The notes under the pieces: model-generated
Databases searched by the model: none
What the model was told of the DNA's origin: nothing
The model's input: only the letters and a program-made list of their open reading frames with translations
In this document: positions 2,578 to 34,035 of the stretch, one piece after another
Layout: each line of letters starts with the position of its first letter
Position numbering within the stretch: position 1 is the first letter of the stretch
DNA from: Candidatus Contendibacter sp.
GTDB lineage: Bacteria > Pseudomonadota > Gammaproteobacteria > Competibacterales > Competibacteraceae
Reading direction: 5' to 3'
Length of the DNA stretch: 64,000 nucleotides
NCBI GenBank assembly: GCA_029624675.1
Contig: JARSSP010000059.1
Span: forward strand, 1-64,000
Translations under genes and position numbers: made by a program

Positions 2578-2681
2578 GGGCGTTCGATCAACGAGGGAAT
2601 CGAGGCATTTTAACCGTGACGGATGGTGGGCGCGTGTTTCCCCGACCGGAAATGTTGGAGATCAAAAACCGTCGATTTTCT

Positions 2682-2697
2682 TGTCGGTTTTCCAACA
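2682..2697 (+). promoter_or_regulatory. NifA upstream activator sequence (TGT-N10-ACA) of nifV
   Basis: The sequence TGTCGGTTTTCCAACA matches the NifA enhancer consensus TGT-N10-ACA exactly. It lies 82 bases upstream of the sigma-54 promoter at 2780, the usual distance for NifA-dependent nif promoters. nifB in this window has the same arrangement. Confidence 0.75.
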
Positions 2698-2779
2698 ATC
2701 GCGCTGCTAGCCTGTGCGAAATCTCGTGCTTTCCTTGGAACAACCCACACAACTAACCGATTTAAAAAAACTTTTTTAT

Positions 2780-2795
2780 CGGCACGCCGTTTGCT
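2780..2795 (+). promoter_or_regulatory. Sigma-54 (-24/-12) promoter of nifV
   Basis: CGGCAC-GCCGT-TTGCT fits the RpoN consensus TGGCAC-N5-TTGCA, with GG and GC correctly spaced. It ends 37 bases before the nifV start codon and is preceded by a NifA activator site. Expression should depend on RpoN and NifA. Confidence 0.8.
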
Positions 2796-2832
2796 GATTT
2801 CCAGGCGAACCTTGTCTGGGGACGTGACCGCC

Positions 2833-3966
2833 ATGATTACCCTTCCTCGCACCATCGTGATCGACGATACCACCCTGCGCGACGGCGAACAGTCGGCGGG
2901 CGTGGCGTTTACTCAGGATGAAAAGCGGGCCATCGCCCGCGAATTGGTGGCGCTGGGCGTGCCGGAATTGGAAATCGGCATTCCGGCGATGGGTGCGGAA
3001 GAGCGGGAAAGTATCCGCGACCTCGTCGCGCTGGATTTAAACGCTACGCTGCTGGTATGGAGCCGAATGTGCGAATCGGACATTCGACTGTGCCGCAATC
3101 TTGGGGTGCGGTGCGTGGACCTGTCGGTGCCGCTGTCCGACCAGCAACTTCGACACAAGTTGGGTTGGACCCGTGAGCGGGCACTGGACACCATCCGCCG
3201 CCGCGTGCTCCAGGGGCGGGATTTGGGTCTGGATGTGATCGTCGGGGGCGAGGACGCCTCGCGGGCCGAGCACGACTTTCTGTTGCGCGCCGCCGAAACC
3301 GCGCAAGCCGCGGGCGCGCGTCGGTTTCGCTTCGCCGACACGCTGGGCATCATGGAACCACTCGGTACGCTGGCGGTTTTCCAGCGCTTGCGGTCGGCGG
3401 TGGACTTGGAACTGGAAATGCACGCTCACGACGATCTAGGGCTGGCCACCGCCAATACCCTGACCGCCGCGCTGGGCGGCGCCACCCACGTCAACACCAC
3501 CGTCAATGGCCTGGGCGAGCGGGCCGGCAATGCCGCGCTAGAAGAGGTCGTGATGGGATTGCGCAAGCTGTATGGCTTCCAGGTCGATATCGATCTTTCG
3601 CGTTTCCCCACGCTGTCACGTCAGGTCGCCACCGCCGCCAATCGACCGTTGTCCTGGCACAAGAGCTTGGTTGGCGAAGGCGTTTTCACCCATGAAGCGG
3701 GCATTCACGTGGACGGCCTGCTGAAACATCCGCTCAACTATCAGGGCGTGGATCCCGCCGAACTGGGCCGCAACCATCGACTGGTGCTAGGCAAGCATTC
3801 CGGCACACACGCGGTGCGTCGGGTCTACCACGATCTCGGCATCGTCCTGAGCGACCGCCAGGTCGACGTTGTGCTCCAGCGTATCCGTGCCTTCGTCAGT
3901 CAGCACAAGCGCTCACCCGAAGTCGCCGAACTGAAATCCTTTCACCGCGACCGGGCGGACCGCTAG
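2833..3966 (+). CDS. nifV: Homocitrate synthase NifV
   Basis: A 377-residue enzyme condensing acetyl-CoA with 2-oxoglutarate to homocitrate, the organic ligand of the FeMo-cofactor of nitrogenase. The HMGL-like TIM barrel shows the N-terminal signature [10 protein letters not shown] (residues 11-20), the metal-binding HAHDDLG motif, and [14 protein letters not shown], all diagnostic of the citramalate/isopropylmalate/homocitrate synthase family. The nif context identifies it as NifV. The reading frame stays open upstream, but the ATG at 2833 gives the canonical [19 protein letters not shown] start. Expression is probably NifA/RpoN dependent, from the sites at 2682 and 2780. An IS4 remnant separates it from nifB, which has its own promoter. 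Confidence 0.92.
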
Positions 3967-4027
3967 CCCATGGTCCAAGCCAAACTCACCGCTCCCCATT
4001 CGGCGGCGGCGAGTTGGGCGGTAGCCG

Positions 4028-4428
4028 ATGGGGCTGACGGTGCGGGCCGAGCAGGTCACACCGCACCCCCAGAGCAGCGAACCGGTGACGGTTACCGCAC
4101 CGCTGGCGTGGGCAGAGTTCCCGCCGGTCGAGGTCGAACCGCTCGACGGGCGCCGGCTGACCCACTGCCCGGCCACCCCCTTGTCCCAGGCGGCCGAGTT
4201 GCTCAAATGGTCCGGAAACCGTTGGAGCATCGAGGTTTTCTCCGGAATCTCCAAAACCGGTTGCCGGGTGGAAACCTTGCGGCTCGGCACCGTGGAACGC
4301 TTGGAACCGGCCTTGGCCTTGTACCGAGCATCGCTTGGCGGATTCAGTACTTGACCGCGCTGGGGCGGACGACCCCCGACGCTGCCAACGTCCCCACTGC
4401 CTTTCCAAGCCCGCCAGCGCGAGGTCCG
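4028..4428 (+). pseudogene. IS4-family transposase remnant between nifV and nifB
   Basis: The translation contains LLKWSGNRWSIEVF, ISKTGCRVETLRLGTVERLE and, after a frameshift near 4330, AWRIQYLTALGRTTPD. These match the C-terminal catalytic region (around the YREK-type glutamate) and tail of IS4/Tn5-like transposases. The N-terminal half is missing and the frame is broken. A related but distinct fragment lies at 39790-40097. The remnant ends just before the nifB activator site at 4432, so insertion and decay left nifB control intact. Confidence 0.65.
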
Positions 4429-4431
4429 CAT

Positions 4432-4447
4432 TGTACTGTTACCGACA
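4432..4447 (+). promoter_or_regulatory. NifA upstream activator sequence of nifB
   Basis: TGTACTGTTACCGACA is an exact TGT-N10-ACA match. It lies 96 bases upstream of the nifB sigma-54 promoter at 4544, the same architecture as at nifV. Confidence 0.75.
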
Positions 4448-4543
4448 ATCGCCGCTTCCAGGTTGTGGCGAATACCACGGCGACCTAAATCTATCCAACA
4501 AAAAAAACAATAGCTTACAAAATAATTAATAGAGATTCCCGTT

Positions 4544-4559
4544 CGGCACGCCGGTTGCT
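4544..4559 (+). promoter_or_regulatory. Sigma-54 (-24/-12) promoter of nifB
   Basis: CGGCAC-GCCGG-TTGCT is nearly identical to the nifV promoter and keeps the invariant GG/GC spacing. It ends 50 bases before the nifB start. It probably drives nifB, the two ferredoxin genes and nifQ. Confidence 0.8.
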
Positions 4560-4609
4560 AAGAGTTTTCCGACCGCACTTCGTCTTGACCATTCTTCGGG
4601 GGAAAGCTT

Positions 4610-6052
4610 ATGGAACCGACTCGCCAGCCGACCGCCGCCGGTACTCCGCCCACACTCCATCCCTGCTATTCCCCGGAAGCGCATCGGCATTTTGCCCGCC
4701 TGCATCTGGCGGTGGCGCCGAAATGCAACATCCAATGCCACTACTGCAACCGCAAATACCATTGCAGCAACGAATCGCGCCCCGGTGTGGTGGCGGAGTT
4801 GCTGACGCCTGAACAGGCGGTCGGCAAGGTGCTGGCGGTGGGCGCGGCCATTCCACACCTGGCGGTGGTCGGCATCGCCGGACCCGGCGATCCGCTGGCT
4901 AATCCCGAGCCGGTGTTCGCCACCCTGGGCGAACTGCGGGAAAAAGCCCCGGATTTGCTGCTCTGCCTGTCCACCAATGGACTGGCGCTGCCGGATCAGG
5001 TCGAAAACCTGGTGGCGCATGGCATTCACCATGTCACTATCACCATCAACTGCGTGGATCCCGACATCGGCGCGCGGATTTATCCATGGATCGTCCATCG
5101 GAACCGTCGCCTGCGGGGACACGAGGCGGCGACGACGCTGATCGCGCAACAATTGCGGGGGCTGGACCTGCTGGTGGCGCGCGGCGTCCAGGTCAAGATC
5201 AATTCGGTGTTGATCCCCGGCGTCAACGACGCCCACCTGCCGGAAGTCAACCGGTGGGTCCGGGACAGAGGCGCGATCCTGCATAACATCATGCCGTTGA
5301 TCGCCAGGCCGGAGCATGGAACCCATTACGGCATGATCGGACAACGCGAACCGACCGTCGAGGAACTGGCGGCGGTGCGCGCCGCTTGCGAAAGTAATGC
5401 GGGGATGATGAGTCATTGCCAGCAATGCCGCGCCGACGCGACCGGAATGCTGGGCGAGGAGCGTGGTGCTGAATTCAGCCTCGCTAAGGTCGCGGCCATG
5501 AAAATCGACCCCCAGGGGGCGATGGCCAAGCGGGCGGAAGTGCGCGCGGCCATCGTCTCGCGACTAGCGCGATCTCCCCAGTTGGTATCGCTGGCGGCGC
5601 GGCAATCGACCAGGACTTCCCGTCGCTCCGCTACTCCCGAAAACGCGCTGCGGATCGCGGTGGGTAGCACCGATGGCCAACGCGTCGACGCCCACTTTGG
5701 ACATCTGCGGGAATTGCTGATTTTCGATGTCACCGCCAGCGACGCGCGTCTGAGCGAACGGCGAGAGATTGCCCGCTATTGCCATGGCGCCACGACCTGC
5801 GGCGATGGCGAAACGGCGCTGACCGGCGCGATTCGCGCCTTGCACGATTGCACGCTGCTGCTATGCGCCCGCATCGGTTTTACCCCCTGGCGGGCATTGC
5901 AGGACGCCGGGATCCAACCCGACAGCGAACACGCGGGGGAAGAAATCGCCGCGGCGCTGCGAACCGTTCATGCCCAATGGCGAGATCGCGGAGGGATAAC
6001 GCAACCATCGCACGTCATTTCCACCCACAGCGGCTCCCAACGATGGGGATAG
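4610..6052 (+). CDS. nifB: Nitrogenase cofactor maturase NifB (radical SAM, with NifX-like domain)
   Basis: A 480-residue radical SAM enzyme that fuses two 4Fe-4S clusters and inserts carbide to make NifB-co, the precursor of all nitrogenase cofactors. The SAM-cluster motif CNIQCHYC (Cys39, Cys43, Cys46) is followed by NRKYHC, the extended NifB signature. The barrel runs to about residue 300. From about residue 345 a NifX/NafY-like cofactor-binding domain begins with IAVGSTDGQRVDAHFGH, so this is the two-domain NifB. The start has a good Shine-Dalgarno (GGGGGAAAG) upstream. First gene of a probable nifB-fdx-FeSII-nifQ operon under NifA/RpoN control. Confidence 0.95.
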   Translation: MEPTRQPTAAGTPPTLHPCYSPEAHRHFARLHLAVAPKCNIQCHYCNRKYHCSNESRPGVVAELLTPEQAVGKVLAVGAAIPHLAVVGIAGPGDPLANPEPVFATLGELREKAPDLLLCLSTNGLALPDQVENLVAHGIHHVTITINCVDPDIGARIYPWIVHRNRRLRGHEAATTLIAQQLRGLDLLVARGVQVKINSVLIPGVNDAHLPEVNRWVRDRGAILHNIMPLIARPEHGTHYGMIGQREPTVEELAAVRAACESNAGMMSHCQQCRADATGMLGEERGAEFSLAKVAAMKIDPQGAMAKRAEVRAAIVSRLARSPQLVSLAARQSTRTSRRSATPENALRIAVGSTDGQRVDAHFGHLRELLIFDVTASDARLSERREIARYCHGATTCGDGETALTGAIRALHDCTLLLCARIGFTPWRALQDAGIQPDSEHAGEEIAAALRTVHAQWRDRGGITQPSHVISTHSGSQRWG

Positions 6053-10290: not shown

Positions 10291-11056
10291 TCACCCGTTG
10301 GGTGAAGGATCAAATAAGGATCAAATCGTTCATCAACGCCTCTTTGTGCTAATATTTCAACCGGTTAGCTCACCCAAGGCAAGATATAACTGCTCTTTTT
10401 AGGGTCACAGATCCCGCTCCAGTTCGCGCGCCGGCTGGCCGGCGCGGGCCGCCGCCGCCACGAACCTGGTCAGCTCCGCCAGGCGCGCTGACAGTTCCAT
10501 TCAATCGGCAGCGGCGACATGATCGTGATCATCGGTGGGTTCCTCGGGTGATTGCGTTTTCGACGACCTCAACCTACCCACGTCCGGGCCACCCGGGCAA
10601 GGCGTCCACCGCCCTTTTCCATTCCAGCACCCTATCCCGCGCTCGACGGGTTACACCCATTTGAAACATCTTGAAATTCAATTGTTTCAAATTGAAACCG
10701 CCCCTCTCCAAAAAAGATAAGTCTACTTTAATAACCACTTAATAATTAACTATATTGTATCTACTGTGTTTATTGGCATGAGAAATGCCGCATAAAAATA
10801 CGGCATGGCTACTTAATTAAAGTAACCCACCCACTTTGCCAGTGCGACTAAGACTGGCTGTGTCGTTCCGTCTAAATTCGAATACTTATTTCAATCATTA
10901 CTCTGAGCCAGCGCCGCCGGCGACGGTGGTTACTGAGAAATTTTAATTCCTGACTGTTCTATTGTTTTATATCAGGTTTTTTGTGCGCTACGGTTCAAGC
11001 ATGTTGTGGTATCTAAAACCAAACCTGCCGTGCCCTACCCTTGGAGAAGCACATCT
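10291..11056. other. Gene-poor, partly AT-rich intergenic region
   Basis: No convincing gene. A 31-codon minus-strand frame (10408-10500, MELSARLAELTRFVAAAARA...) may be the start of a lost gene. 10680-11000 is clearly AT-rich and includes an inverted repeat, ATGCCG...CGGCAT at 10785-10806. The region precedes the amylase gene and probably holds its promoter, which I could not pinpoint. Confidence 0.4.
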
Positions 11057-13246
11057 ATGTTCAGGAAAGCTGCGTTGTTGTGGTTCATTCTGGCTCATCT
11101 AAGCAGCTCTGCTTTTGGTCAGGACATCACCCCTCCGACGATCACCTCTTTCACTTTCCCCAATCGCCCATCGGGGAACAAGATCGGCGGTATCGTTCCG
11201 TTCAGCGTGACCGCCGCTGACGACATCGGTGTGACGCGGGTGGAGTTCTACAAGGATGGTGTTCTCGTGGGTAGCGATTCCGCAGCGCCTTGGGGTACGA
11301 ATATCGACTTCAACGGCGACCCGGTAAACCGGGATTACACCCTCACAGCCAAGGCTTACGATGCGACCAACAACTCCTCTACTTCGACTTTAACCGTCAA
11401 CAAACCCGACTGGAACATGCGCGGCGCGGGTGCCATGCTGGCGGAAAATGGCTGTTTCTTCAGCGTGTGGGCGCCGAGCGCGGACGCGGTCCAGTTGGTT
11501 GGGAACTTCAACGACGTTTATGGAAACGGTGCGCCGGACATCCATTATCTGACGAAGGACAGCCGCAGCTATTGGTTTGGATTCGTGCCGGGGTGCGCCG
11601 CCGGCCATCGGTACAAGTACGTCATCCGCAACCCAGGCGGCTCGAACAACACCGCCGGAGCGTACTGGAGACTCGATCCCAGGGCCAAGGACTCGGACCA
11701 TTCCTTCAACGGCGACAACGGAAACGAAAAGAAGCTTAATTACAACGCCAGCATCATCGTGGATCCCAAGTACAGTTGGGTGCCCTTCACGTCCCCCACG
11801 TTCAAGGATTACATCATCTACCAACTCCAAGTCGGCTCCTTCGCCGGCATGAACGACGGCATCGACATGGCGGGCCATGGCGGTAATGGCACCATCGCCA
11901 CATTCGGCGATGTCGAGACGAAATTTCAATACATCAAGGACATGGGGTTCAACGCGATCGAACTACTCCCCATCCACGAGTTTGCGGGGGACCGGTCCTG
12001 GGGTTACAACCCGGCTCTCTTCTTCGCCCCCGAATCGGCCTACGGTTCTCCCGACCAGTTCCGCCATTTTGTGAACGAAGCGCATAAAAGGGGCCTCGCC
12101 GTGATCGTGGACGTGGTCTACAACCACTCCGGTCCCAGCGATAACTCCTTGTGGCAATTCGACGGCAACACGAAGGACGGCGGCATTTATATCGAAGGTG
12201 GCTGGGATACGTGGTGGGGCAAGGGACCCGCCTGGTGGAAGCAGGAAGTGCAGGACTTCTTCTTCGATAATGCCAAGATGTATATCACGGAATACAACGT
12301 GGACGGCATCCGCTTCGACGCCACCACCCAGATCGACGGGAACAAGCTCAAGGAAGTGCTTCGAAGGATCGTTTCGACTTATCCGGACAAATACATGATC
12401 GCTGAGCATCTTCCCGATCACCCGTGGATCACGAAGGACGGCAAATTCCATGCGACGTGGTGCGCCCGCTCGCACCACGAATTTCAGCGGGCGGCCAACG
12501 GGCAGGATCCCGTCAACAAGGTGGCGAGCTTCCTCGGCTGGGATGGTTATGATCACTCTTGGAACTTAGTGAAATACGCCCTGGGTTCCCATGACGACAT
12601 TGGCGACCAGGAAAAGGGCGACGCGGAAAAGGGTTTGGCAAACTGGGATAGCCGTCATCGCTATTTCACCGATCTTTTCGGCGGTCGTGATAACTGGGAC
12701 GCTCGCGCCAAGGCCAGGATGGGCTGGGCGTTGACCGCGACCATGCCGGGCACACCCATGCTGTTCATGGGCACCGAGTTCCACTTCAATCCGCCCTGGG
12801 GGTACTGGCATGACGGCATGGATGCTAATGGCGACCACCGCATCAACTGGTCCTCCGCAGTCGATTCGACCGCCATGCCGATGCGCAACATGGTGGCGGC
12901 GATCAATTCCGTCCGGTCGAACAATCCGGCGCTGCGCAGCGATACCCTTAGCATCCTCCATCGGGACTACACGAATAACGTGATCGCCTTCAAGCGTTGG
13001 GACGGCGGCAATGTCGTCCTGACGGTGGTTAATCTGGGCGCAAACAACTTCACCAACAAAAGCTATGGCGTCGCGGTCGATTCCCAAGGGCAGTGGATGC
13101 AGATCTTCTGCAGCCAGGATGCCGATTTCGGCGGATGGAACGGCGCTGGCAACGCCTTTTATGAGCCGTGGACGCAAGGCGACGGCAAAATCTACATCAA
13201 TCTGCCCAAGTACAGCGTCCTGGTCTTCAAGCTGAAATCAACGTAG
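11057..13246 (+). CDS. Secreted GH13 alpha-glucan-active enzyme (amylase/branching-enzyme-like)
   Basis: A 729-residue exported enzyme. Residues 1-21 form a signal peptide ending ...SSSAFG-QD. Next come an Ig-like domain (~30-115), a CBM48-type E-set domain (~130-235, AMLAENGCFFSVWAPSADAV) and a GH13 barrel. Catalytic motifs: DVVYNHSG (region I), GIRFDATTQ with nucleophile Asp421, IAEH with acid Glu450, and SHDD with Asp513. CBM48 plus this barrel resembles glycogen-branching or trehalose-releasing enzymes, but the signal peptide points to degradation of external starch or glycogen. The ATG at 11057 follows GGAG and begins the signal peptide; upstream in-frame codons add a non-hydrophobic extension. 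Confidence 0.88.
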   Translation: MFRKAALLWFILAHLSSSAFGQDITPPTITSFTFPNRPSGNKIGGIVPFSVTAADDIGVTRVEFYKDGVLVGSDSAAPWGTNIDFNGDPVNRDYTLTAKAYDATNNSSTSTLTVNKPDWNMRGAGAMLAENGCFFSVWAPSADAVQLVGNFNDVYGNGAPDIHYLTKDSRSYWFGFVPGCAAGHRYKYVIRNPGGSNNTAGAYWRLDPRAKDSDHSFNGDNGNEKKLNYNASIIVDPKYSWVPFTSPTFKDYIIYQLQVGSFAGMNDGIDMAGHGGNGTIATFGDVETKFQYIKDMGFNAIELLPIHEFAGDRSWGYNPALFFAPESAYGSPDQFRHFVNEAHKRGLAVIVDVVYNHSGPSDNSLWQFDGNTKDGGIYIEGGWDTWWGKGPAWWKQEVQDFFFDNAKMYITEYNVDGIRFDATTQIDGNKLKEVLRRIVSTYPDKYMIAEHLPDHPWITKDGKFHATWCARSHHEFQRAANGQDPVNKVASFLGWDGYDHSWNLVKYALGSHDDIGDQEKGDAEKGLANWDSRHRYFTDLFGGRDNWDARAKARMGWALTATMPGTPMLFMGTEFHFNPPWGYWHDGMDANGDHRINWSSAVDSTAMPMRNMVAAINSVRSNNPALRSDTLSILHRDYTNNVIAFKRWDGGNVVLTVVNLGANNFTNKSYGVAVDSQGQWMQIFCSQDADFGGWNGAGNAFYEPWTQGDGKIYINLPKYSVLVFKLKST

Positions 13247-13383
13247 AGCCTGGTTTTCCCCAGCAATTTGAGAAGATCGAACAGCCATGCGGCATCGCGA
13301 TCCTCGGTCGCGAAGATGGTCGATGGCCGTACTCGATAGGTTTGCTTTGCGCCATTCCACTAATCGTAAGGGAGGTTTAAAAG

Positions 13384-14313
13384 ATGTTTGGATTAGAAGC
13401 GCTCGATGTATTGATCGGTCTCGCCACCGTCTATCTCGCGTTCGGCGTGGCGTGTACCGCGGTTGTTGAAGCGGTCTCGGCTTGGTCCAACGTGCGGAGC
13501 AGCACGCTCGAAGCGGCGCTAAAAGAGTTTCTGGCTGGAGACTGCAAGCAAAACCAGCGGACCGAGCCATTCGTTACGGCCTTTTACAACCATCCACTCG
13601 TGCAGGCGCTCACCAAGGACAAGGACGGGCGACCATCGTACATCCCTCCCCAGATTGTCGGACAGGTCGTGGAGGCGTTGGTCACCGCGAACGGTACCGC
13701 GACGTCGCTCGCGGAATCCGTGCAATCCCTGCCCGATGGCCGCATCAAAAGCCTCCTCGAATTTTTCGTCGCGCAGGCCGGCGAAGATGCGGCCAAGTTT
13801 CGCAAAGCGGTCGAGGATCATTTCAACGCCGCGATGGATCGCGCGTCCGGCTGTTTCAAGCGCTTCACGCAGTACGCGGCGCTCGTCATTTCGGCGGTGC
13901 TGGTGATCGCCGCAAACGTCGACACCATCACCATCGCGAACTCACTCGCCTCGGATCCAGCCGCGCGGGCCAAAATGGTCGAAGTCGCGCAACAACATCT
14001 GACGACCGCACAGATCACCGAGAATTTGGTAAAGGCTGGCTAGACCACGGGAAACACTACGGTCGAACAGGCCATACAACAGGTAGCGGCGGCCCGGGCC
14101 GCCTTGAACCGGGCGGTATCCGACACGGAATCCGCGGGCCTCCAGATCGGGTGGCGAGACTTCCCAAAGACCTTCGGCGACTTTCTCACGAAGGTAGCTG
14201 GACTGCTTGTCAGCATCTTCGCGGTTTCGCTTGGAGCGCCATTTTGGTTCGACGTGTTGCAACGCTTCATGCGGGTGCGAGCAACGGGCATCACGCCCGG
14301 CGAATCGAAGTGA
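13384..14313 (+). pseudogene. Membrane protein gene interrupted by an in-frame amber codon
   Basis: A strong ribosome-binding site (GGGAGG) precedes MFGLEALDVLIGLATVYLAF, an N-terminal membrane helix. A second helix (YAALVISAVLVIAANV) lies near residue 170. Translation stops at TAG (14041-14043), yet the same frame continues open for 90 more codons with a further membrane segment (GLLVSIFAVSLGAPFWF) and ends GITPGESK, 33 bases before the next gene. The original protein was probably 309 residues with an N-out or hairpin topology. Either a recent nonsense mutation, a sequencing error or readthrough. No function is known to me; it sits between two secreted glycan hydrolase genes. Confidence 0.7.
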
Positions 14314-14346
14314 CGAGGAACTCGCATCATTGACGGAGGATATCCC

Positions 14347-17300
14347 ATGCAACGTCTTTCGCGCGCCCCGACCAACTCACACCTAAGATTCATCCTCTTG
14401 CTTGTCGCGCTGAGCGCTATCGCGATTCCAGCGGCGCCCGTCTGGTCCGCCTGCTCGCTGGAAACAGCCGCCGTAATGGCGCCGCTGGAAATCCGCAACT
14501 CCACCGAAATGCAGGCGTTTCAGGATCTGCTTGCCGAAGCCAAGGGCATCGGCGTCAACGCCGTGTCGGTCGATGTCTGGTGGGGCAAAGTCGAAAGGAA
14601 CAGCGACCAGCAATTCGACTGGACCTACTATGACCAAGTCTTCGATAAGATCCGTCAAGCCGGCCTTAAGATCGTGCCGATTCTGTCGTTTCACCAATGT
14701 GGCGGCGGACCTGGTGATGATTGCAATATCCCCTTGCCGAACTGGCTGTGGTCGAGTTTCGCGGCGGCGGGTCTCTCCAGCAACGACCTGAAATACGAGA
14801 GCGAAACCGGTCGGATTCAGGACGACGCCATTGCGCCCTGGGCAACGGCGACGCCGGCGGTACTCGAGCAATTCCGCGAATTCATGCAGGCTTTCGCCAC
14901 CCATTTTGCCCCGATTGCCGCCGATTTCGTCGAGATCAACGTCAGCCTGGGACCGACCGGCGAACTGCGTTATCCGGCCTATAACAAATCCGACGGCTGG
15001 AATTATCCCGACCGCGGCAACTTCCAGGCTTATAGCCGGCTGGCGCAACGCCACTTCCGCGACTGGGCGCTCGCCAGTTTCGGCGGTCCGAGCGGCGTCG
15101 CGACCCGCTGGAGCATCCCGCTCGCCAACCCCGAAGAAATCCGCGTGCCGGGCGGGGGATTGCCGGCCGGTTCCGGCCGCCGGGCGCAAACCTTCGTCGA
15201 CGACAACGACCATGTGGACACCCAGTACGGCCGGGATTTCATCGACTGGTATAACCAGTCCCTGGTCGAGCACGGGCGCAGAATGCTGCTGGCGGCCGCC
15301 GGCGCGCTCGATGGCGCGATGAAAAACATCCCGCTCGGGATGAAACTGCCGGGCATCCACTGGCAAATGATGGCCTGCGCGCCCCGGCCGCGCATCGCCG
15401 AGATCACGGCGGGGCTGGTGCGCACCAGCCTGAACCTGTCGGCGCGGGCGGACGCCCACGGTTACAAACCGATCATGGACATGATCGCGGAGGTGAAACA
15501 ACAAAGCAGCCGTGATGTCATTTTGCACTTCACCGCCGCCGAGATGGATAACGACCCGGCCTGCGGCGAAGGAAACTCGATGGCGGAAACCCTGGTGTTC
15601 TGGATCTCGGAAGCCGCTCGCGACTGGAACATCACTCACAAAAGCGAAAACGCGCTGGCCTGCGTCGATACGCCCAACGATGATCGCACCTGGGACCATG
15701 TCCGCAACGTGCTTTCGAACGCCTCCTATAAGGGTTTCACGCTGCTGCGATTGACTGATGCGGGCTGTCGTCCCTGGTCGGTGGACAAAGCCCAGTACCA
15801 GCAATTGATCAAGGACTGCCCTCCAAGCACGTGCTTTTTCCGCGGTACCCCGAACGACTGGGGCAAGACCCCGATGACGCCCAGCGCGGGCACCAACCGC
15901 TTTGAAACCTGCCAGACCTTTGCCGGCAAACCCAATCCACGGTTCAAGATCTGCTGTTCCGAGGACTGGCGGGCGTGTTATCCGTCCCGGGACTTCATCG
16001 TCACCGATGGCACTTATCGCCTCGCGTTCGACGTGGGTTCCCAACAGATCACCACCACCCCGGTGGGCGCCGATTGCGGACCGTTGCAGAATGCCTGGTA
16101 TTTTCGCGGCACACCAAATAGCTGGGGTACGACCCCGATGGAGCGGGTCGGCGACAGCAACGTCTTTAGGACTTGCCAGACGTTCGCCGGGGTACCGAAT
16201 CCACGGTTCAAAGTCTGTCGCTTCCCGGACTGGCGGGAGTGTTACCCGCCCGAGGATCAATCCGTCAAAGACGGCGCCCAGGAGATGACGTTCAACGCCG
16301 ACACCCACAAGATTACCGTGTCCGCCATCCCAAGCTGCGGCCAGGATCGCTGGTTCTTTCGGGGCACGCCCAATGGCTGGGCAACCACGCCGATGGAGCA
16401 GGTGGACAACTCGGACGTGTTCAAGATCCCGGTGGATTTCGCACGCCAGGATCCCGCGCCCCGGTTCAAAATCTGTCACTTCCCGGACTGGCGGGAGTGT
16501 TATCCGTCCCAGGACGTTCCGGTCGACGACTGCTCGCGTTATGAGATCACGTTCAATCGGACTACCAAGGTAATCAACCAGAGCAAGATCGGTCCGGTAA
16601 CCGATGTCGACTGCCGCAACGGGGCAGTCGACATCAGGGCCAAGCCGTCGGCCGGTCGCTACCCCGCGCCGCAGTGTATTACTTTGGAGCCCAAACCCGC
16701 CGGAGCCACGCTGTATTACACGACGGACGGCTCAACCCCCACGGAACAGTCAAACCGCTACACTGGCGACTGCATCCCAGCGCAGGTTGACCTGAATCTG
16801 CGGGTGCTGGGCAAGGCAGACGGTAGGACGAACGGGAGGTCAGATTTTCCCTACCAGATTGCCCCACCAATCTCCGGCCAAGTGCATGTCTCGCGTTTCT
16901 GGCACAACCACCAGCCGATTTACTGGCCGGAGTGGAACGGCAACGGTTCTCAGACCAACCGCGTCCAATACGCGTGGGATTCGATCGCGCGCAAAGACAG
17001 CCAAACCTACGGTACCGGCGTCGGGCATCCGGACAACAATCTTTCGGAGATCTTCGGCCAAGATGACCGGCGCGCCGCGTACCAAGGGCGTCCGCGCGAT
17101 TCGCTGGCGGGCCTTCCGGTCGAGGCCGGCTTTGCCATGAGTTACTCCGGATCGCTCGTCGACAACGTCCGCAATCTCGCCGCCAACAACCAACTCGGCT
17201 ACGGCAGCAACTGGTGGAATGGAAACCGCGAGGCGAGAGGCTGGATCACACCGCTCGGCAGCCGCCGGCTCGACCTCGTCGGTTTCACCTACCATCACTC

Positions 17301-19011
17301 GCTCGGCGCGGTCCTGCCCAAGTCTGTACTCCGCAAGGAGATTCAGATCTTCAAGCAGGCCTGGTGGAAGGCTTGGGGCGGAAAACAGGATCTGAGCGAT
17401 CACTCGCGCGGGTTTTTCCCGACCGAGATGGCGTTCTCGACGCCGATGATCGACGTGCTCGTCGACGAAGGTTACCAATGGGTGATCGTCGCTAGCCATC
17501 ATCTCAGCCGAACCTGCCCGACTTATTTCAAGCAATTCGATCTCGCCGGCGGCAAATACAGCATTTATTCCAGTCCGCCGAACAAGGCCGATCTGCTGGG
17601 CCCATCGCCGACGACCGGTTGGTGGTACAGCGAGCCGAACCCCGGCAACGCCGCCTGGAACGTCGCACCGTTCGCCTACCAACTTCACCGCACCAAATAC
17701 GTGAACCCGGAAACCGGCGCGGAAAAATCCATCATCGTGGTGCCTTCCGACGACGTGCTCAGTTACCGTTTCGGCTACGCCAACGAAGGCATCTCCAAGA
17801 TTAAGGACCACATCGCGCCGTTTGCCACCGACCCGAGCCGGCCGGCACTGGTCATGCCCGCCACCGATGGCGACAACGCCTGGGGCGGCGGTTTCTCCTC
17901 CTGGATGGAGGCCACGCCGCAATTCTTTAATGACTCGCGCGGCGCCGGCTACACCGTCTCCACGGTTCAGGACATGGTGAACAAAAAACCGCCTCCCGAT
18001 GGCCAGTATATTCATGTCGAGGACGGTGCCTGGATCTTTCCCGAGACCGATTACGGCTCGCCGTATTTCCTGAAATGGGTCGAGCCACCGCTCAAGCCAG
18101 GCAGCCCGAATGCTTATCCGGGCACGATGGTGGATCTCGAAACACCCGGCTTCGCGCTCAAGTTCTGGAGCTGGGCGCCGGTGATCACCGGCGCGAACTG
18201 GGTCGAGACCGCCGAGCAAATCTGGCGCGACGAAGGCGGCACGGTCGATCCGTGGAAAATCCAGGCGCCCTATGATTGGAACGGGGTCTGGGCGAGCCCG
18301 AACGACATCGAACTTGCCTGGCACATCTATCTGACGGGGCTCGACTCCGGGTTCAACTACTACGGCGGACTCGGCAACGACGATGAAGTCAAGCCATCGC
18401 TCGCCACGCGCCGCGCGATCGAGAAGCTCTCCAGCTACGTCAACGCGCGGTTGCCCAACGACCGAACACCACCGTCGGTCTTCAAGCCCCAGCGCTTCCC
18501 GTGGAATCCAGGCGGTTACACGTTCGGCTGGTTCAATAGCATCCCAGGCGACAAACGCTATCTCAAGAAAATGCCATCCGAGTTCTACATCTGGACGCAC
18601 GTCTACGATGTCTCGGGCGTCGCCAGCGTGAACCTGAAGGTGCGCCTCGATGGCGACGGCTTAAACCCGCTTTCGAACAACCAGAACGAGACTTACGTCG
18701 GCGGGCCCGAGGTAGGTTCCTGGCTGACTATCCCGATGACCAAACGCGTGCTGCCACGGACGCAGCCCGAGCTGAACGCTGCCGCCAACAACAGCCAGAT
18801 CAACTACTTCATTACCAGTCCGGAGCTGGCCGATTATTACTTCGCGAAGGTCACTAACGCCACGGTGCCTGATTTTCAAGGCAAGCTGCTCGATTATTAC
18901 ATCGAAGCTACCGACGCCCGGGGCAATGTTTCAAAGTCCGACATCCAGCACGTGTTCGTCGAGGACGACAGCGCGGTCCCCGCGGGACCTGGGAGATCGG
19001 TAACGCCTTAG
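14347..19011 (+). CDS. Giant secreted GH14 beta-amylase + GH57 fusion with starch-binding-like repeats
   Basis: 1554 residues. A signal peptide (1-35) leads into a GH14 beta-amylase domain (~45-480) with catalytic acid Glu206 in GPTGELRYP and base Glu399 in LHFTAAEMDND. Three ~86-residue repeats follow (~495-745), each with FRGTPNxWxxTPM and DWRECYP, probably carbohydrate-binding. A chitobiase-C-like domain (~757-835, TLYYTTDGSTPT) precedes a GH57 domain: HNHQP at 853-857, nucleophile Glu1027 in FPTEMAFS, acid Asp1174 or 1176 in TDGDNAWGG. The C-terminal ~170 residues are beta-rich. GH14 releases maltose from chain ends; GH57 cuts internal or branch linkages, so one exported protein could strip starch or glycogen. 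It is preceded by GGAGG and lies 33 bases after the split membrane gene. Confidence 0.88.
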   Translation: MQRLSRAPTNSHLRFILLLVALSAIAIPAAPVWSACSLETAAVMAPLEIRNSTEMQAFQDLLAEAKGIGVNAVSVDVWWGKVERNSDQQFDWTYYDQVFDKIRQAGLKIVPILSFHQCGGGPGDDCNIPLPNWLWSSFAAAGLSSNDLKYESETGRIQDDAIAPWATATPAVLEQFREFMQAFATHFAPIAADFVEINVSLGPTGELRYPAYNKSDGWNYPDRGNFQAYSRLAQRHFRDWALASFGGPSGVATRWSIPLANPEEIRVPGGGLPAGSGRRAQTFVDDNDHVDTQYGRDFIDWYNQSLVEHGRRMLLAAAGALDGAMKNIPLGMKLPGIHWQMMACAPRPRIAEITAGLVRTSLNLSARADAHGYKPIMDMIAEVKQQSSRDVILHFTAAEMDNDPACGEGNSMAETLVFWISEAARDWNITHKSENALACVDTPNDDRTWDHVRNVLSNASYKGFTLLRLTDAGCRPWSVDKAQYQQLIKDCPPSTCFFRGTPNDWGKTPMTPSAGTNRFETCQTFAGKPNPRFKICCSEDWRACYPSRDFIVTDGTYRLAFDVGSQQITTTPVGADCGPLQNAWYFRGTPNSWGTTPMERVGDSNVFRTCQTFAGVPNPRFKVCRFPDWRECYPPEDQSVKDGAQEMTFNADTHKITVSAIPSCGQDRWFFRGTPNGWATTPMEQVDNSDVFKIPVDFARQDPAPRFKICHFPDWRECYPSQDVPVDDCSRYEITFNRTTKVINQSKIGPVTDVDCRNGAVDIRAKPSAGRYPAPQCITLEPKPAGATLYYTTDGSTPTEQSNRYTGDCIPAQVDLNLRVLGKADGRTNGRSDFPYQIAPPISGQVHVSRFWHNHQPIYWPEWNGNGSQTNRVQYAWDSIARKDSQTYGTGVGHPDNNLSEIFGQDDRRAAYQGRPRDSLAGLPVEAGFAMSYSGSLVDNVRNLAANNQLGYGSNWWNGNREARGWITPLGSRRLDLVGFTYHHSLGAVLPKSVLRKEIQIFKQAWWKAWGGKQDLSDHSRGFFPTEMAFSTPMIDVLVDEGYQWVIVASHHLSRTCPTYFKQFDLAGGKYSIYSSPPNKADLLGPSPTTGWWYSEPNPGNAAWNVAPFAYQLHRTKYVNPETGAEKSIIVVPSDDVLSYRFGYANEGISKIKDHIAPFATDPSRPALVMPATDGDNAWGGGFSSWMEATPQFFNDSRGAGYTVSTVQDMVNKKPPPDGQYIHVEDGAWIFPETDYGSPYFLKWVEPPLKPGSPNAYPGTMVDLETPGFALKFWSWAPVITGANWVETAEQIWRDEGGTVDPWKIQAPYDWNGVWASPNDIELAWHIYLTGLDSGFNYYGGLGNDDEVKPSLATRRAIEKLSSYVNARLPNDRTPPSVFKPQRFPWNPGGYTFGWFNSIPGDKRYLKKMPSEFYIWTHVYDVSGVASVNLKVRLDGDGLNPLSNNQNETYVGGPEVGSWLTIPMTKRVLPRTQPELNAAANNSQINYFITSPELADYYFAKVTNATVPDFQGKLLDYYIEATDARGNVSKSDIQHVFVEDDSAVPAGPGRSVTP
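15829..16590 (+). repeat. Three tandem carbohydrate-binding-like repeats inside the GH14-GH57 gene
   Basis: Three consecutive units of about 255 bases encode FRGTPNDWGKTPM, FRGTPNSWGTTPM and FRGTPNGWATTPM, each followed by PRFKxC and an aromatic DWRxCYP motif. Conserved Trp, Tyr and paired Cys residues suggest disulfide-stabilised starch-binding modules, though I cannot place them in a named CBM family. Confidence 0.7.
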
Positions 19012-19195
19012 GACTACCCGGCAAAACCCGAGCGGAGGAAGATGAAACAAGTGGCCAACTCACATGTTTCGGCATGCCACGGGTTACAAACTCGCTCACG
19101 ACGGCCAGGAACCCACGCCATCCAGCATGACCTCGGGCATCGCAATATTCCTTGCTTACCGGGTAGCGCACTATTTGACAACAACAAGGAGAACC

Positions 19196-20584
19196 ATGAT
19201 GGCAAAGCCAAGCATCAAGAACAGCAGGGGATGGTTTCTGACGACTGCGGCGATTTGCGCCCTGACCATCGCGCGGTGCGCGACAGCCGCTCCGACATTG
19301 AAAGAGGTCGGGGCTGGCGTCAACATCGATCCAGCTCAGATCTCGGTTTCCGGAATCTCGTCGGGTGGCTTCATGGCCCACCAGTTTCATGTCGCGCACT
19401 CCGAAAACATCATGGGGGTAGGCATTGTCGCCGGTGGCCCCTACTACTGCGCGGGTGGGAGCATCCTGGACGCAGTGACGAAGTGCAGCGAGTTTGTCGT
19501 GCTCGAATGTACGAAGCTCGGGCTTGATCCGAAATGGTGTGGTAAGACCGACCTGGCTCCGAAAGACACGAGCGCTGCCCAGGCCGTCGCTCAGGCTTCT
19601 TTCGGAGAGGCCCAAAAACAGGAAGCGGCGGGCACCATCAACAAACTGACCGGCCTGAGGAACGCCAAGGTCTATCTGTTCAGCGCCGAATACGACGCCA
19701 TCGTTCCCCACGGCGTGATGGATGCGGTCTTCCATTTCTATGCCGACCCCGACAAGGCGGGTATCGAGGCGGACAACGTCGGCTACAACCGCACGTTTCC
19801 AGCCCGTCACACGATGGTCAGAGATGGTTTCAACGAACCCGCCGACGGCGCGGTGGGCGACTGTCCCTTGCCGCCAGCGCCGTCGCCGCCGCTCGATAAA
19901 AACACTTTCATCGACGACTGCGAATCTGTTGCGAAGCGGCAACAAGCCAAGGATGGCTGTGTTTGTCCGCCGCCTGCGGCGGGCGAAGCGGCACGCAGGA
20001 CAATTTGTCCTCCGGCCGACAAGCAGACGGCCTGCAAGGATCTGCGGGATGTTGACCTCGCTGGCGCGATCCTAAAACGCATCTACGGCGAGCAGGTCCT
20101 CAAAGGCGGCCGGGTGAAGGTCGCGGAGGGAGAAGTCAAGGCCTTCGACCAAGTCCGAATATTCGGGATGTTTTCGGATTACCCCTTCACCGAGACGCAG
20201 AACGCGTCGATGGCAAAAGAGGGTTACGTGTTCATCCCCAAAACCTGCAAGGACGGCCGGAAATGCAAGCTGCACGTTGCTTTTCATGGCTGCTTGCAGG
20301 GTGGTGGAGCGACGGACCACAGGAGCGGCCAGCACGACAGCAATCTGTTTGCCAAATTCGCGGGCTACAACGAGTGGGCGCAAGCCAACGACATCATCGT
20401 TCTCTATCCCCAAGTACGCGTTTGGAATAGCGGTCCGCTCAATCCGCAGGGATGCTGGGACTGGTGGGGTCAGCTCTACACACACGACAATTACCACACG
20501 CAAGGCGGCAAGCAGATCAAAGCCGTGGCGCAGATGATCGACATTCTTGCTGGCAAACAACTGCTGCCGATACCGGCTCAATGA
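19196..20584 (+). CDS. Exported PHB-depolymerase-like esterase
   Basis: 462 residues with an N-terminal signal peptide (…AICALTIARCATAA). The lipase box is SVSGISSGGF with nucleophile Ser55, followed by the oxyanion region HVAHSENIMGVGIVAGGPYYCA. The catalytic His is likely in DNYHTQGG near the end and the Asp in the central part. This pattern fits poly(3-hydroxybutyrate) depolymerase-like alpha/beta hydrolases. Cysteine pairs in the central insertion suggest an oxidising, exported location. The start ATG follows AAGGAG; the frame is open further upstream but without a signal sequence. Followed by a phasin gene, which supports a link to PHA. Confidence 0.8.
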   Translation: MMAKPSIKNSRGWFLTTAAICALTIARCATAAPTLKEVGAGVNIDPAQISVSGISSGGFMAHQFHVAHSENIMGVGIVAGGPYYCAGGSILDAVTKCSEFVVLECTKLGLDPKWCGKTDLAPKDTSAAQAVAQASFGEAQKQEAAGTINKLTGLRNAKVYLFSAEYDAIVPHGVMDAVFHFYADPDKAGIEADNVGYNRTFPARHTMVRDGFNEPADGAVGDCPLPPAPSPPLDKNTFIDDCESVAKRQQAKDGCVCPPPAAGEAARRTICPPADKQTACKDLRDVDLAGAILKRIYGEQVLKGGRVKVAEGEVKAFDQVRIFGMFSDYPFTETQNASMAKEGYVFIPKTCKDGRKCKLHVAFHGCLQGGGATDHRSGQHDSNLFAKFAGYNEWAQANDIIVLYPQVRVWNSGPLNPQGCWDWWGQLYTHDNYHTQGGKQIKAVAQMIDILAGKQLLPIPAQ

Positions 20585-20607
20585 GGTGTATGCGCCAGCA
20601 GGCAAAA

Positions 20608-20624
20608 AGCGTTTTCCAAACGCT
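20608..20624 (+). other. Perfect hairpin between esterase and phasin genes
   Basis: AGCGTTT-TCC-AAACGCT forms a 7-bp stem with a 3-base loop, 24 bases after the esterase stop. It has no T-tract, so it is more likely an mRNA-stabilising or processing element than a terminator. Confidence 0.4.
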
Positions 20625-20680
20625 CATGGTGTGCGCACAGTTTTGCAGTTAGCAATGCAATCGATACGGAGGACTAAAAA

Positions 20681-21196
20681 ATGACGGATATATCGAAGTT
20701 GATGACCGATTGGGTCAAGGCGATGAGCAGTCTGGACGTGACCAAGGGAAGCGAGCAATTGCTGAACGTTTTGGCCAGCCTTGACGTGCCGGGCGTCAAT
20801 ATGGATGCCCTGGTGGCGAGTCAGCGCGAGAACCTAGAAGCGCTTAGCGCTGCTAACCGCGCTACGATGGAAGGAATCAAGGCGGTGGGTGAATGGCAGA
20901 TGAAGATCTTGCAGCAAACCATGCAAGAACTCATGGCAGCAATTGGCAGTCTCGCCAATATCGGTTCGCCGCAGGAGATGGTTGCAGTGGAAACCGAATT
21001 GACCAAGAAAGCCTTCGAGACCGCGGTCCGCAAGATGCGGGAGCTGGCGGAGATCGTGACCAAGGCGAATCAGCAGGCCACCGATGCCCTCGTCAATCGC
21101 ATCCCCGCAAGCCTGGACGAAATACGGGAAGTGCTGAAGCTTCCACAGCCCCCGGAGCCTGAATCTCCGCGTGAGGTGACCCAATATATGCGCTAA
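20681..21196 (+). CDS. phaP: Phasin (PHA granule-associated protein)
   Basis: 171 residues, almost wholly helical, with no signal peptide. The sequence MTDISKLMTDWVKAMSS, then NLEALSAANRATMEGIKAV and QEMVAVETELTKKAFETAV, is typical of phasin_2 proteins, which coat polyhydroxyalkanoate granules and control their size. Many members start with a similar short amphipathic segment. It is preceded by CGGAGG and followed by a terminator-like hairpin at 21236. Together with the PHB-depolymerase-like gene upstream it suggests that the cell makes PHA granules. Confidence 0.88.
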   Translation: MTDISKLMTDWVKAMSSLDVTKGSEQLLNVLASLDVPGVNMDALVASQRENLEALSAANRATMEGIKAVGEWQMKILQQTMQELMAAIGSLANIGSPQEMVAVETELTKKAFETAVRKMRELAEIVTKANQQATDALVNRIPASLDEIREVLKLPQPPEPESPREVTQYMR

Positions 21197-21235
21197 CTCA
21201 ATGGGTAACTGATTGAACAAACATAAAAGAATGAC

Positions 21236-21270: not shown

Positions 21271-21309
21271 CTATGTACTTGGATTTTCCCCTCACAACCT
21301 CGCCACCAC

Positions 21310-21418
21310 CTTCTCCATCCGCTCCTAGCCGACGCTGGTGTAAATCTGGATGGTGGCGACGCTCTCATGGCTCAGTAGCCTTATGGCCCGCGATGTTGTC
21401 CATAATGAGTAGTAACCG
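21310..21418 (-). pseudogene. Tyrosine recombinase C-terminal remnant
   Basis: The minus strand encodes RAIRLLSHESVATIQIYTSVG, resembling the C-terminal box of tyrosine recombinases (LLGHxSxxTTxIYTHV), where IYT contains the nucleophile Tyr. Everything upstream of it is replaced by a transposase remnant, so only the last ~30 codons survive. Confidence 0.45.
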
Positions 21419-21890
21419 TATGGCGGTAACGCTTCCAATAGCGTGAAGCGAACCGACAGCTCTTCCCGCCAGCGTACCCAGGCGGCGTGATTCTCGACGG
21501 CATCGGGGAGTTCATCCAGGGGCGGTGGGGCGGCGATGATCGCCGTTAATTCCCGCTGTAGCCAAGGATGTAACACCGTGTTGGGGCATGGGCGACCCCT
21601 TTGACCCGCAATTGCCCAGTAGTGGGATGAAATAAGGTCAACAATTTAACAGTCTCACCCCAGATATGCTCATGCGGGTAGCAGACCGGTTCACCGATCG
21701 GTTGCCAACTGGCTACCGAGTTGTGGAATCGCTGGATACGGCCCGGCTTCATGCGCTTTTTTGGCCTCTGGATCGGGATCGGTCACCGTCACCATGACGG
21801 TCTGACCTCCCTTCCTTCGCGGTCGCTGAGCCGCACCCGTGTCGCACCACGACCGATGCTTTTGCCAGCTCAAGCCTGCATCGACCAAAC
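21419..21890 (-). pseudogene. IS630-like DDE transposase remnant
   Basis: In order on the minus strand and across two frameshifts: LSWQKHRSWCDTGAAQRPRR, VTVTDPDPEAKKAHEAGPYP, VKLLTLFHPTTGQLRVKGVA and VLHPWLQRELTAIIAA. This order is that of an IS630-like DDE transposase from its linker through the catalytic core. Terminal parts are lost. It is fused at its 3' end to the recombinase remnant. Confidence 0.5.
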
Positions 21891-21894
21891 GGCA

Positions 21895-21975
21895 CAGAAG
21901 GGGGTTGATTGGCAATTTACTACTCCCGATGCCCGGATCAAGCTTCGACGGCTTCATCCACGAATTCAAACATGA
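21895..21975 (+). pseudogene. IS630-family transposase C-terminal fragment
   Basis: The plus strand encodes GVDWQFTTPDARIKLRRLHP, the usual end of IS630 transposases (DWQFTTEDARIKLKRLYP). A comparable fragment lies at 53330-53575. Only the C-terminal ~25 codons remain. Confidence 0.5.
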
Positions 21976-22121
21976 CAGACCACCAGTTTAAGTATCCGAT
22001 CCATGCGCTGACCAGCGACCACACCATTTATCGCCTTTCCAACGTTATCTCGAAAGCACCTCGCTTTCATGGAAAATGAGCATTCAAAACTAAATCATTC
22101 AATAGCTTAACTAGGATCGCT

Positions 22122-28831: not shown

Positions 28832-29802
28832 TCCCCGACCTCCCCGTCGATGAACCCATCCCCCTGGACCGCTGCGGCACCTGGCCTGTCTCGGTGCATC
28901 TTTTCGACCCGCAGAGCGCCGACGCCGTGCTGGCCGCGCTCGCCGCCGAGCGCCCTTTGCTGGTCCGGGGCGAACCTGGCGCGGGCAAAAGCCAGTTGGC
29001 GAGGGCGGCGGCCCAAGTTCTGAAGCGTTCGTTTATCGCCACAGTGGTTCATTCGCGCAGCGAGGCCCAGGACCTGCAATGGGAATACGACGCCGTCGCC
29101 CGGCTGGGCGAGGCGCAGGTACTCGCCTCGGTGCCTTCCGAACTAACTTCCCAGGAGCGTCTTGACCCGCGCCGCTTTCTGATTCCCGGTCCGCTCTGGT
29201 GGGCGTTCGACTGGCAATCCGCTCAGGAGCAAGTCACTAAATACAGTCTGTGCAAGGCCAATCCGCCCTTTAAGCCCGAGGGTTGGCAGCCGGAACAGGG
29301 CAGCGTGCTGCTGATCGACGAGATCGACAAGGCCGAGGCGGACCTGCCCAACAGCCTGTTGGAAACGCTCGGCAACGGCGCTTTTCCGGTGCCGTGGTTG
29401 GACGCTCCCGTGGGTTTGCGCGCGGGTGTTCCGCCGCCGTTGGTGGTCATCACCACCAACGAGGAACGCGAACTACCCTCTGCTTTTCTGCGCCGCTGTA
29501 TGGTGCTGCGCCTGGAGTTGCCCAAGGAACAAGATGCTCTGGTGGCTTGGTTGGTCAAGCGAGGCGAGAAGCACTTCGGGAAGGATTGCGCTGAAAGCAT
29601 TCGCATTAAGGTGGCCAACAAATTGTTCGAGGACCGCGACAGGGCAATTCAACGAGGTTTATACAAGCCGGGTCAGGCCGAATATCTGGATATCTTGCGC
29701 GCCCTGGTGCAGGCTTGCGGCCCCGACAAGGCCGCTCAGGAAAAGCTGTTCAAGCGCATCGCCAGCTTCGCACTCGATAAAGCCGGGACCACGGGCGCAT
29801 GA
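28828..29802 (+). CDS. MoxR-type AAA+ ATPase
   Basis: 324 residues. Walker A is GEPGAGKS, Walker B is VLLIDEIDKAE, sensor 1 is VVITTNEERELPSAF, followed by an arginine finger in FLRRCMVLRLELP. This is the MoxR/AAA_5 pattern. MoxR ATPases usually remodel a partner carrying a vWA or similar domain. Here the gene is translationally coupled on both sides by ATGA overlaps, with the metallophosphoesterase and with the 903-aa FGE protein, so the three probably form one NTP-controlled complex. ATP-dependent switching of the FGE protein is inferred from known MoxR-containing ternary systems. Confidence 0.85.
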   Translation: MIPDLPVDEPIPLDRCGTWPVSVHLFDPQSADAVLAALAAERPLLVRGEPGAGKSQLARAAAQVLKRSFIATVVHSRSEAQDLQWEYDAVARLGEAQVLASVPSELTSQERLDPRRFLIPGPLWWAFDWQSAQEQVTKYSLCKANPPFKPEGWQPEQGSVLLIDEIDKAEADLPNSLLETLGNGAFPVPWLDAPVGLRAGVPPPLVVITTNEERELPSAFLRRCMVLRLELPKEQDALVAWLVKRGEKHFGKDCAESIRIKVANKLFEDRDRAIQRGLYKPGQAEYLDILRALVQACGPDKAAQEKLFKRIASFALDKAGTTGA

Positions 29803-33033: not shown

Positions 33034-34021
33034 ACTGGCCGAAGTGGCCGCTATCCCCAACCTGATGGAGGCGACGGCCCGCGCGGCGCGCGGCAAACGC
33101 GAACGGCCCGTGGTGCGCGCCTTTCTGGATCGGCTCGAAGCGCATCTGGCGGTCCTAGCCGAGGACATCGTGGCCGGCCGCGCGCCGCGCGGCGAATATT
33201 GCCGCTTCCGCATTCGCGACCCCAAGCCGCGCGTCATTCACGCCGCCTGCTTCGCCGACCGGGTGTTGCATCACGCCGTCATGCTTCCCGCAGGTCCGGT
33301 GCTGGAGCGGGCCATGACCGACACCAGCTACGCCTGCCGTCCGGGCAAGGGAACGCTGGCGGCGGTCCGGGCCGTACAAGCCGCCTTGCAACGCTTTCCC
33401 TGGTACGTCAAGGTGGACGTGAGCGGCTATTTCGAGCACATCGACCACGCGCGTCTGTTCGATGTGCTGGACCGGCGTTTCAAGGGGGCGGGATTCATGG
33501 ACCTGCTGCGACGCATCGTCGCCGGCCACGAGACCGCGCCCGGCAAGGGCTTGCCCATCGGCTCCCTGACCTCGCAATACTTCGCCAACTATTACCTGGA
33601 TGGCCTGGATCGCCTGCTGTTGGAAACACTCGGCGCGCGCGCCGAAGTGCGCTACATGGACGACATCCTCTGGTGGTGCGACAGCCGGGAGCAGGCGCGG
33701 GAAACCCTGGCGGCGGTCGGCGACTGGCTGGGCCGAGAGCGCCTGCTGCGGCTGAAGGAGTTCAGCCCAATCAACCGTTCCAGCCACGGGGTCGGCTTCT
33801 GCGGTTACCGCGTGTCGCCCGGCGCGCTGCGTCTGAACGCGCGACGGCGCAAACGCTACCAGGAACGCCGCGCCGCGTGGGAGATGGCTTGGCGCGAGGG
33901 GCAAATCGATGCTTTGACCCTGCAACGGGGGTATGATGCCGCGCGCGCCATCACCCTCCATGCGGACGGCCGCAACTGGCGGCGCAACGAACTGGCGCGT
34001 CATCCCGCGCCGGAGGTGTAA
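33014..34021 (+). CDS. DGR reverse transcriptase
   Basis: 335 residues. RT motifs: [53 protein letters not shown] with the first catalytic Asp, and YMDDILWW at residues 214-217. The DGR-specific motif [17 protein letters not shown] (Ser187-Gln188) replaces the QG..SP of group II intron RTs. The enzyme copies the TR transcript with adenine-selective errors. Start is GTG at 33014, overlapping the HRDC gene, which has no space for another start. The TR begins 15 bases after its stop. The catalytic aspartates and thumb region look intact, so it may be active. Confidence 0.93.
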
Positions 34022-34035
34022 GGGTGGGAGTCGAA

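Follow-up and report, generated by a model that had tools for sequence, protein, structure and literature searches.

Does a single gene of Candidatus Contendibacter sp., a member of the Competibacteraceae, really encode both a GH14 beta-amylase and a GH57 enzyme, and if so, where did the two halves come from and what might the protein do? An earlier note had proposed such a fusion from the DNA letters of the window, by which we mean the whole stretch of 64,000 nucleotides that was analysed. We consider it likely that the product is a secreted, modular degrader of starch or glycogen with two active sites, which arose by transfer of a gene across phyla followed by fusion.

Architecture of the gene

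The gene lies 14 kb into a contig of 67.4 kb, in a genome of 4.74 Mb that was assembled in 74 contigs. Both families fall within one open frame and both are assigned above the curated cut-off: the Glyco_hydro_14 profile scores 312.5 bits against a cut-off of 27, with positions 2-388 of 402 covered, and the Glyco_hydro_57 profile scores 29.6 bits against 21.2, with a GH57 fold behind it (see below). Failure of either assignment, which the earlier note had named as grounds for giving up the fusion, thus did not occur. The claim of secretion agrees with a putative signal peptide, recognized by eye from a hydrophobic stretch, FILLLVALSAIAIPA, which ends in WSA; the N-termini of three GH14 relatives (L004-L006) resemble it, but lack the Cys. 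The parts of the gene are collected in Table 1.

Table 1. Features of the fusion gene and of its GH13 neighbour, in window coordinates
Feature	Position	Strand	Basis
Whole coding sequence, 1554 aa, stop included	14347..19011	+	One uninterrupted ORF, 1554 codons
Signal peptide, residues 1-35	14347..14451	+	Cleavage likely after A35; read by eye
GH14 beta-amylase domain, residues 43-471	14473..15759	+	Pfam PF01373 5.7e-93; B. cereus beta-amylase 5.4e-65
E206, GH14 catalytic acid (B. cereus E172)	14962..14964	+	Alignment to B. cereus beta-amylase
E434, GH14 catalytic base (B. cereus E367)	15646..15648	+	Alignment to B. cereus beta-amylase
X25-like starch-binding repeat 1 (predicted)	15829..16089	+	Repeat comparison and fold
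X25-like starch-binding repeat 2 (predicted)	16090..16350	+	Repeat comparison and fold
X25-like starch-binding repeat 3 (predicted)	16345..16617	+	Repeat comparison and fold
Chitobiase/hexosaminidase C-terminal-like domain, residues 767-827, probable linker	16645..16827	+	PF13290 2.6e-12
Fusion point, residues 842/843	16870..16875	+	Coincides with mature N-terminus of PVC-type secreted GH57
GH57 region, residues 843-1541	16873..18969	+	60-78% identity to Verrucomicrobiota, Kiritimatiellota and Lentisphaerota proteins
E1027, GH57 nucleophile	17425..17427	+	Aligned to 1k1w E123; invariant in 51 sequences
D1174, GH57 proton donor	17866..17868	+	DGD motif against 1k1w D214 (DGE), via the genome's own GH57 relative; invariant
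C-terminal beta-rich region of GH57 part, residues 1391-1538	18517..18960	+	Secondary structure of AF2 model
Neighbouring secreted-looking GH13 (Big_7, CBM48, alpha-amylase)	11006..13246	+	Domain search

The GH14 half

Two catalytic residues had been proposed for the GH14 half, Glu206 and Glu399. The first stands, since E206, in the motif GPTGELRYP, aligns with E172 of the Bacillus cereus beta-amylase. Glu399 (in HFTAAEMD) is ruled out as the second, because the same alignment puts B. cereus E367 (in GENAL) on E434, in the motif KSENALA.

GH14 is scarce in the class (one of the 369 genomes searched), in keeping with the statement that such enzymes are uncommon in proteobacteria. Three more genomes of the family contain relatives at about 70% identity (L004/G002, L005/G017 and L006/G033), and the Rhodospirillales MAG CSMAG_2909 has a further one, at 64% (L060). 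All of these proteins (64-72% identity) have a signal-peptide-like N-terminus and keep both catalytic Glu positions, but their C-terminal partner is never GH57: it is an unassigned region in L004 and L060, GH13 in L005, and nothing at all in L006. The L005 protein (contig C15 of G017, minus strand) is a GH14-GH13 fusion of at least 1005 residues, which indicates that the GH14 of this family has exchanged C-terminal partners more than once.

A separate observation concerns a proteobacterial protein (G1060; L097:2267-4939, minus strand) with two tandem GH14 domains, the first of which is strongly diverged and perhaps inactive.

The repeats and the linker

Between the two halves lie the three binding-like repeats and the chitobiase-C-like domain that the earlier note had described, and both descriptions are upheld. 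Each repeat is about 87 residues long and carries the motif FRGTPN once (residues 498, 586 and 671); the copies are 45-50% identical to the first, and two Trp are kept in each. No Pfam family matches residues 494-757, even at an E-value of 1. A model of the three repeats is all-beta, and its six best structural matches (Z 7.3-8.7, followed by a drop to 3.6) are SusF, the N-domain of Amy703, SusE twice, the pullulanase of B. acidopullulyticus and the X25 pair of Sca5, without exception starch-binding modules of the X25/SusE/SusF type or portions of starch enzymes; the model was built from a single sequence (pTM 0.40), so this fold match is tentative. Among the entries matched by Foldseek and structural search are 7rpy (E 3.8e-5), 8jn0 (Z 8.5) and 4fem (Z 8.1).

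X25 modules bind maltooligosaccharides via tryptophans, with a two-Trp binding platform (PMC9112005). The predicted fold and the two conserved Trp per module are shared with X25 of Ruminococcus bromii Sca5/Sas20, with SusE/SusF of Bacteroides thetaiotaomicron and with the Amy703 N-domain, while the repeats of the window gene are shorter than the X25 module (about 87 against about 120 residues) and match no Pfam family. Similar repeats are found beside other starch enzymes. They stand after GH14 and before a pullulanase-type GH13 in a Verrucomicrobial protein (L094, genome G551), one repeat of which is 51% identical to the repeat 3 region; they precede GH13 in Verrucomicrobial L095; L096 carries the same repeats; and a GH13 protein of the host family (L013) has them as well. 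By tblastn, similar modules are also seen in Vibrio genes annotated 'starch-binding protein'. The chitobiase-C-like region that follows is modelled with a pLDDT below 50, and the first 86 residues of the model of residues 756-1554 are not resolved.

The GH57 half

Is the second half truly a GH57 enzyme? The Pfam match is partial (residues 915-1052, profile positions 70-175 of 291), and a phmmer search with the closest relative, L058, gives zero matches among the sequences of solved structures. A profile of 51 relatives aligns E123 of the Thermococcus litoralis 4-alpha-glucanotransferase (1k1w) with E1027, in a weak match (E 0.45). Given these two results, the comparison with solved structures draws on fold and catalytic residues only, and assigns no specificity by sequence.

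The fold evidence comes from an AlphaFold2 model of residues 756-1554 (pLDDT 75.6, pTM 0.81). Its best match is 9kyq, an amylopullulanase of Aquifex aeolicus (Z 25.9 over 337 residues, 2.9 A), and Foldseek finds 7e1y at 2.3e-15, so that the closest solved structures are GH57 amylopullulanases. The ranking runs from the amylopullulanases of A. aeolicus and S. marinus to the T. litoralis glucanotransferase (Z 23.6) and on to branching enzymes (Z about 20), and GH57 enzymes fill all of the first nineteen places, from Z 25.9 down to 18.4.

For the GH57 half, the earlier note had proposed Glu1027 and Asp1174/1176, and the pair is Glu1027 and Asp1174. By alignment, E1027 is the nucleophile in CSR-3 and D1174 the proton donor in CSR-4; the placement of the latter is transitive, leading from the DGE of 1k1w (D214) through the DGD of the genome's own GH57 relative to D1174-G-D1176. 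Across the group of 51 sequences, H855, Q856, P857, E1027, D1174, D1176 and N1177 are invariant. As judged from alignment and model, then, the GH14 domain is complete with both catalytic Glu, and the GH57 domain is complete with its Glu/Asp pair.

The specificity of characterised GH57 enzymes is reflected in position 23 of a sequence fingerprint, which is T/S/A, K, L or F (PMC6037648). Here, this position is Asn1177, invariant in the group, which fits none of the characterised specificities in that study, and the specificity of the GH57 half is therefore not readable from sequence. The secreted GH57 proteins of PVC bacteria form a sizeable family with a fingerprint outside the characterised specificities, and are a practical target for enzyme discovery.

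Proposed function and its alternatives

How might the parts work together? The X25-like modules would hold the enzyme on a starch granule or on glycogen, and GH14 would free maltose from non-reducing ends and halt at branches. The GH57 domain, perhaps an endo-amylase or amylopullulanase-like, would cut inside chains or at branches and make new ends, and the two active sites may thus act in synergy. Within the searches described below, this would be the first pairing of an exo-acting beta-amylase with a GH57 enzyme.

A stronger form of this proposal, to which we give only tentative credence, is that the cross-phylum fusion created a self-contained saccharifier, in which a mesophilic secreted GH57 (or GH119-like) domain of debranching or endo action and uncharacterised specificity lifts the barrier that stops beta-amylase. 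If so, a single polypeptide would convert granular starch or glycogen to maltose almost completely.

Perhaps the two enzymes do not remain on one chain. As a polyprotein precursor, the product would be cut in the linker by a protease after secretion, freeing a GH14 beta-amylase and a GH57 enzyme. A GH14 made with a second amylase has a precedent in PDB 3voc, the GH14 part of the Paenibacillus polymyxa enzyme, which is deposited as Beta/alpha-amylase and has a chain of 419 residues only; and the poorly modelled linker leaves room for a flexible, cuttable region, although its low pLDDT mainly reflects the scarcity of aligned relatives. We regard such processing as unlikely.

Another reading accepts a single chain and questions its second activity: the GH57 half could be a glucanotransferase or branching enzyme rather than a hydrolase partner of the beta-amylase, or could belong to the sister family GH119. 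The low Pfam score, the presence of 4-alpha-glucanotransferase and branching enzymes among the fold matches, and the Asn at fingerprint position 23 are all consistent with this idea, and the spacing of 147 residues between nucleophile and acid is near the 142 of GH119. It is nonetheless amylopullulanases that top the fold ranking, and CBM53/CBM25 starch-binding modules are present in several of the domain's PVC relatives. Moreover, GH119 is an alpha-amylase family, so filing the domain there would leave the mechanism unchanged. We hold this alternative to be distinctly unlikely and prefer the secreted degrader with two active sites.

Origin of the two halves

When loci were retrieved with the whole protein, 52 of the 53 named ones matched the GH57 part, and nearly all of these belong to Verrucomicrobiota, Kiritimatiellota or Lentisphaerota. 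In a tree, the GH57 half falls among PVC proteins, nearest to that of the Spartobacteria genome Centralia_MAG_126 (L058), at 78% identity, while the host family holds no comparable relative of this half (best about 30% identity). The resemblance to secreted PVC GH57 proteins (L058; Haloferula rosea L027) spans the whole catalytic and C-terminal beta-rich region. It begins directly after their signal peptide (AQGQVYVSRFWHNHQP in L058 against ISGQVHVSRFWHNHQP in the window gene) and stops near residue 1541, before the stop codon, beyond which come a PHB depolymerase-like gene, a phasin gene and sequence shared with the family. The PVC proteins differ in having their own signal peptide, no GH14, and an extra C-terminal tail (in some with fn3 or CBM53/25) that the window gene lacks. 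GH57 enzymes had been described in the earlier note as usually cytosolic or thermophilic, a description ill-suited to this clade: its members have N-termini that look like signal peptides, and most of them belong to bacteria of soil, water and sediment.

Judged by these comparisons, the two halves are of different origin, GH14 coming from the organism's own family and GH57 being of PVC type. A secreted PVC-type GH57 appears to have been taken up, to have been trimmed of its signal peptide and its C-terminal tail, and to have become attached after the GH14 domain, the repeats and the linker. That the transfer ran from PVC to host is inferred from breadth of occurrence: in the sample of the Verrucomicrobial phylum about 30 of 357 genomes carry this GH57, in the host's phylum one does. 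The gene would thus show how a bacterium assembled a machine of two enzymes, with a gene of another phylum attached precisely at its secretion cleavage point.

To the left and right of the join, GC content lies at 0.60-0.62, and codon usage in the GH14 and GH57 parts is correlated at 0.88. Against relatives, dN/dS is 0.10-0.16 for both halves; dS is near saturation, so these values cover the comparison with relatives and not the time since fusion. A search of the genome found no 16S gene, and with its 74 contigs it is probably a MAG. That assembly of a metagenome joined a host amylase gene to Verrucomicrobial sequence is highly improbable: the apparent MAG without 16S, the nearest relatives of the GH57 half in another phylum and the single occurrence would fit a chimera, but it would require two breakpoints (at the mature N-terminus and near residue 1541) followed by a stop codon and host-like genes, the frame is open across the join with flat GC and matching codon usage, and the repeats between the halves are absent from the loci retrieved via the GH57 half.

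How common is the fusion? Wide occurrence, the other outcome that the earlier note had named as speaking against its claim, was not found, and the fusion is known from one assembly. No second GH14-GH57 chain turned up in 1,984 genome searches, made on overlapping samples (relatives and family; the class, with 369 genomes; the phylum, with 398; and the Verrucomicrobial class and phylum, with 286 and 357) that amount to roughly 1,300-1,400 distinct genomes. A peptide-pattern scan of genome_contigs (84,980 species), which reaches close relatives only, gave no second fusion, nor did 72,556 plasmids contain one.

In five Verrucomicrobial-type loci (L026, L037, L048, L051 and L059), the first GH57 is followed directly by a second paralogue, which shares about 31% identity with the GH57 part of the window gene; the L026 copy of this paralogue carries CBM53.

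Genomic surroundings

The GH13 gene upstream of the fusion gene is a possible partner in starch use, and the pair could fit a starch-use locus. The region 10300-21200 of the window has a GC content of 0.46-0.65, against 0.70 to its left, and, outside GH14, hardly any counterpart in family genomes at the DNA level; it is possibly an acquired island with the GH13, GH14-GH57, PHB depolymerase-like and phasin genes. At about 21280-21990 lie short sequences of 60-100 bases that many family genomes share at 80-90% identity and that are probably a dispersed repeat element.

Elsewhere in the window, homocitrate-synthase-like (HMGL) and NifB-like (radical SAM plus Nitro_FeMo-Co) genes at 2623-6052 make it probable that the organism fixes nitrogen, and together with the phasin and PHB depolymerase-like genes they suggest a nitrogen-fixing PHB former. 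Three ORFs (29799-32510, 33933-35237 and 55133-55972) resemble the same ORF of L059 (17516-18244); the first of these, which follows an AAA_5 ATPase, resembles FGE-sulfatase in the Pfam search. An HSP70 gene and a protein kinase-TPR gene are found at 46.8-51.2 kb.

Comparison with known GH14 fusions

The earlier note knew of no characterised GH14-GH57 fusion, and we found none in the genomes searched or reported in the literature available as open-access full texts. The pairing is new as far as these searches go. The surprise is nevertheless smaller than was stated, because fusions of GH14 with a further starch enzyme are already known, from the GH14-GH13 protein of L005, from the GH14-pullulanase type of L094 and from the Paenibacillus enzyme.

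Similar in layout is the Verrucomicrobial protein of G551 (L094:2758-6750), which consists of a signal peptide, GH14, two X25-like repeats, CBM48 and a pullulanase-type GH13, and is possibly a complete starch-to-maltose enzyme. It shares with the window gene the order of signal peptide, GH14, X25-like repeats and second starch enzyme, and its GH14 with repeats is about 40% identical; unlike the window gene, it has a GH13 of the pullulanase type, and not GH57, as its second enzyme.

In the beta/alpha-amylase of P. polymyxa, too, GH14 is encoded together with a second amylase, a GH13 enzyme; this firmicute protein has a precursor architecture and is reportedly processed by proteolysis after secretion. 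The window gene answers to the same general description, in that one chain, predicted to be secreted, combines GH14 with another domain of an alpha-glucan-active type, GH57 here and GH13 in the known type.
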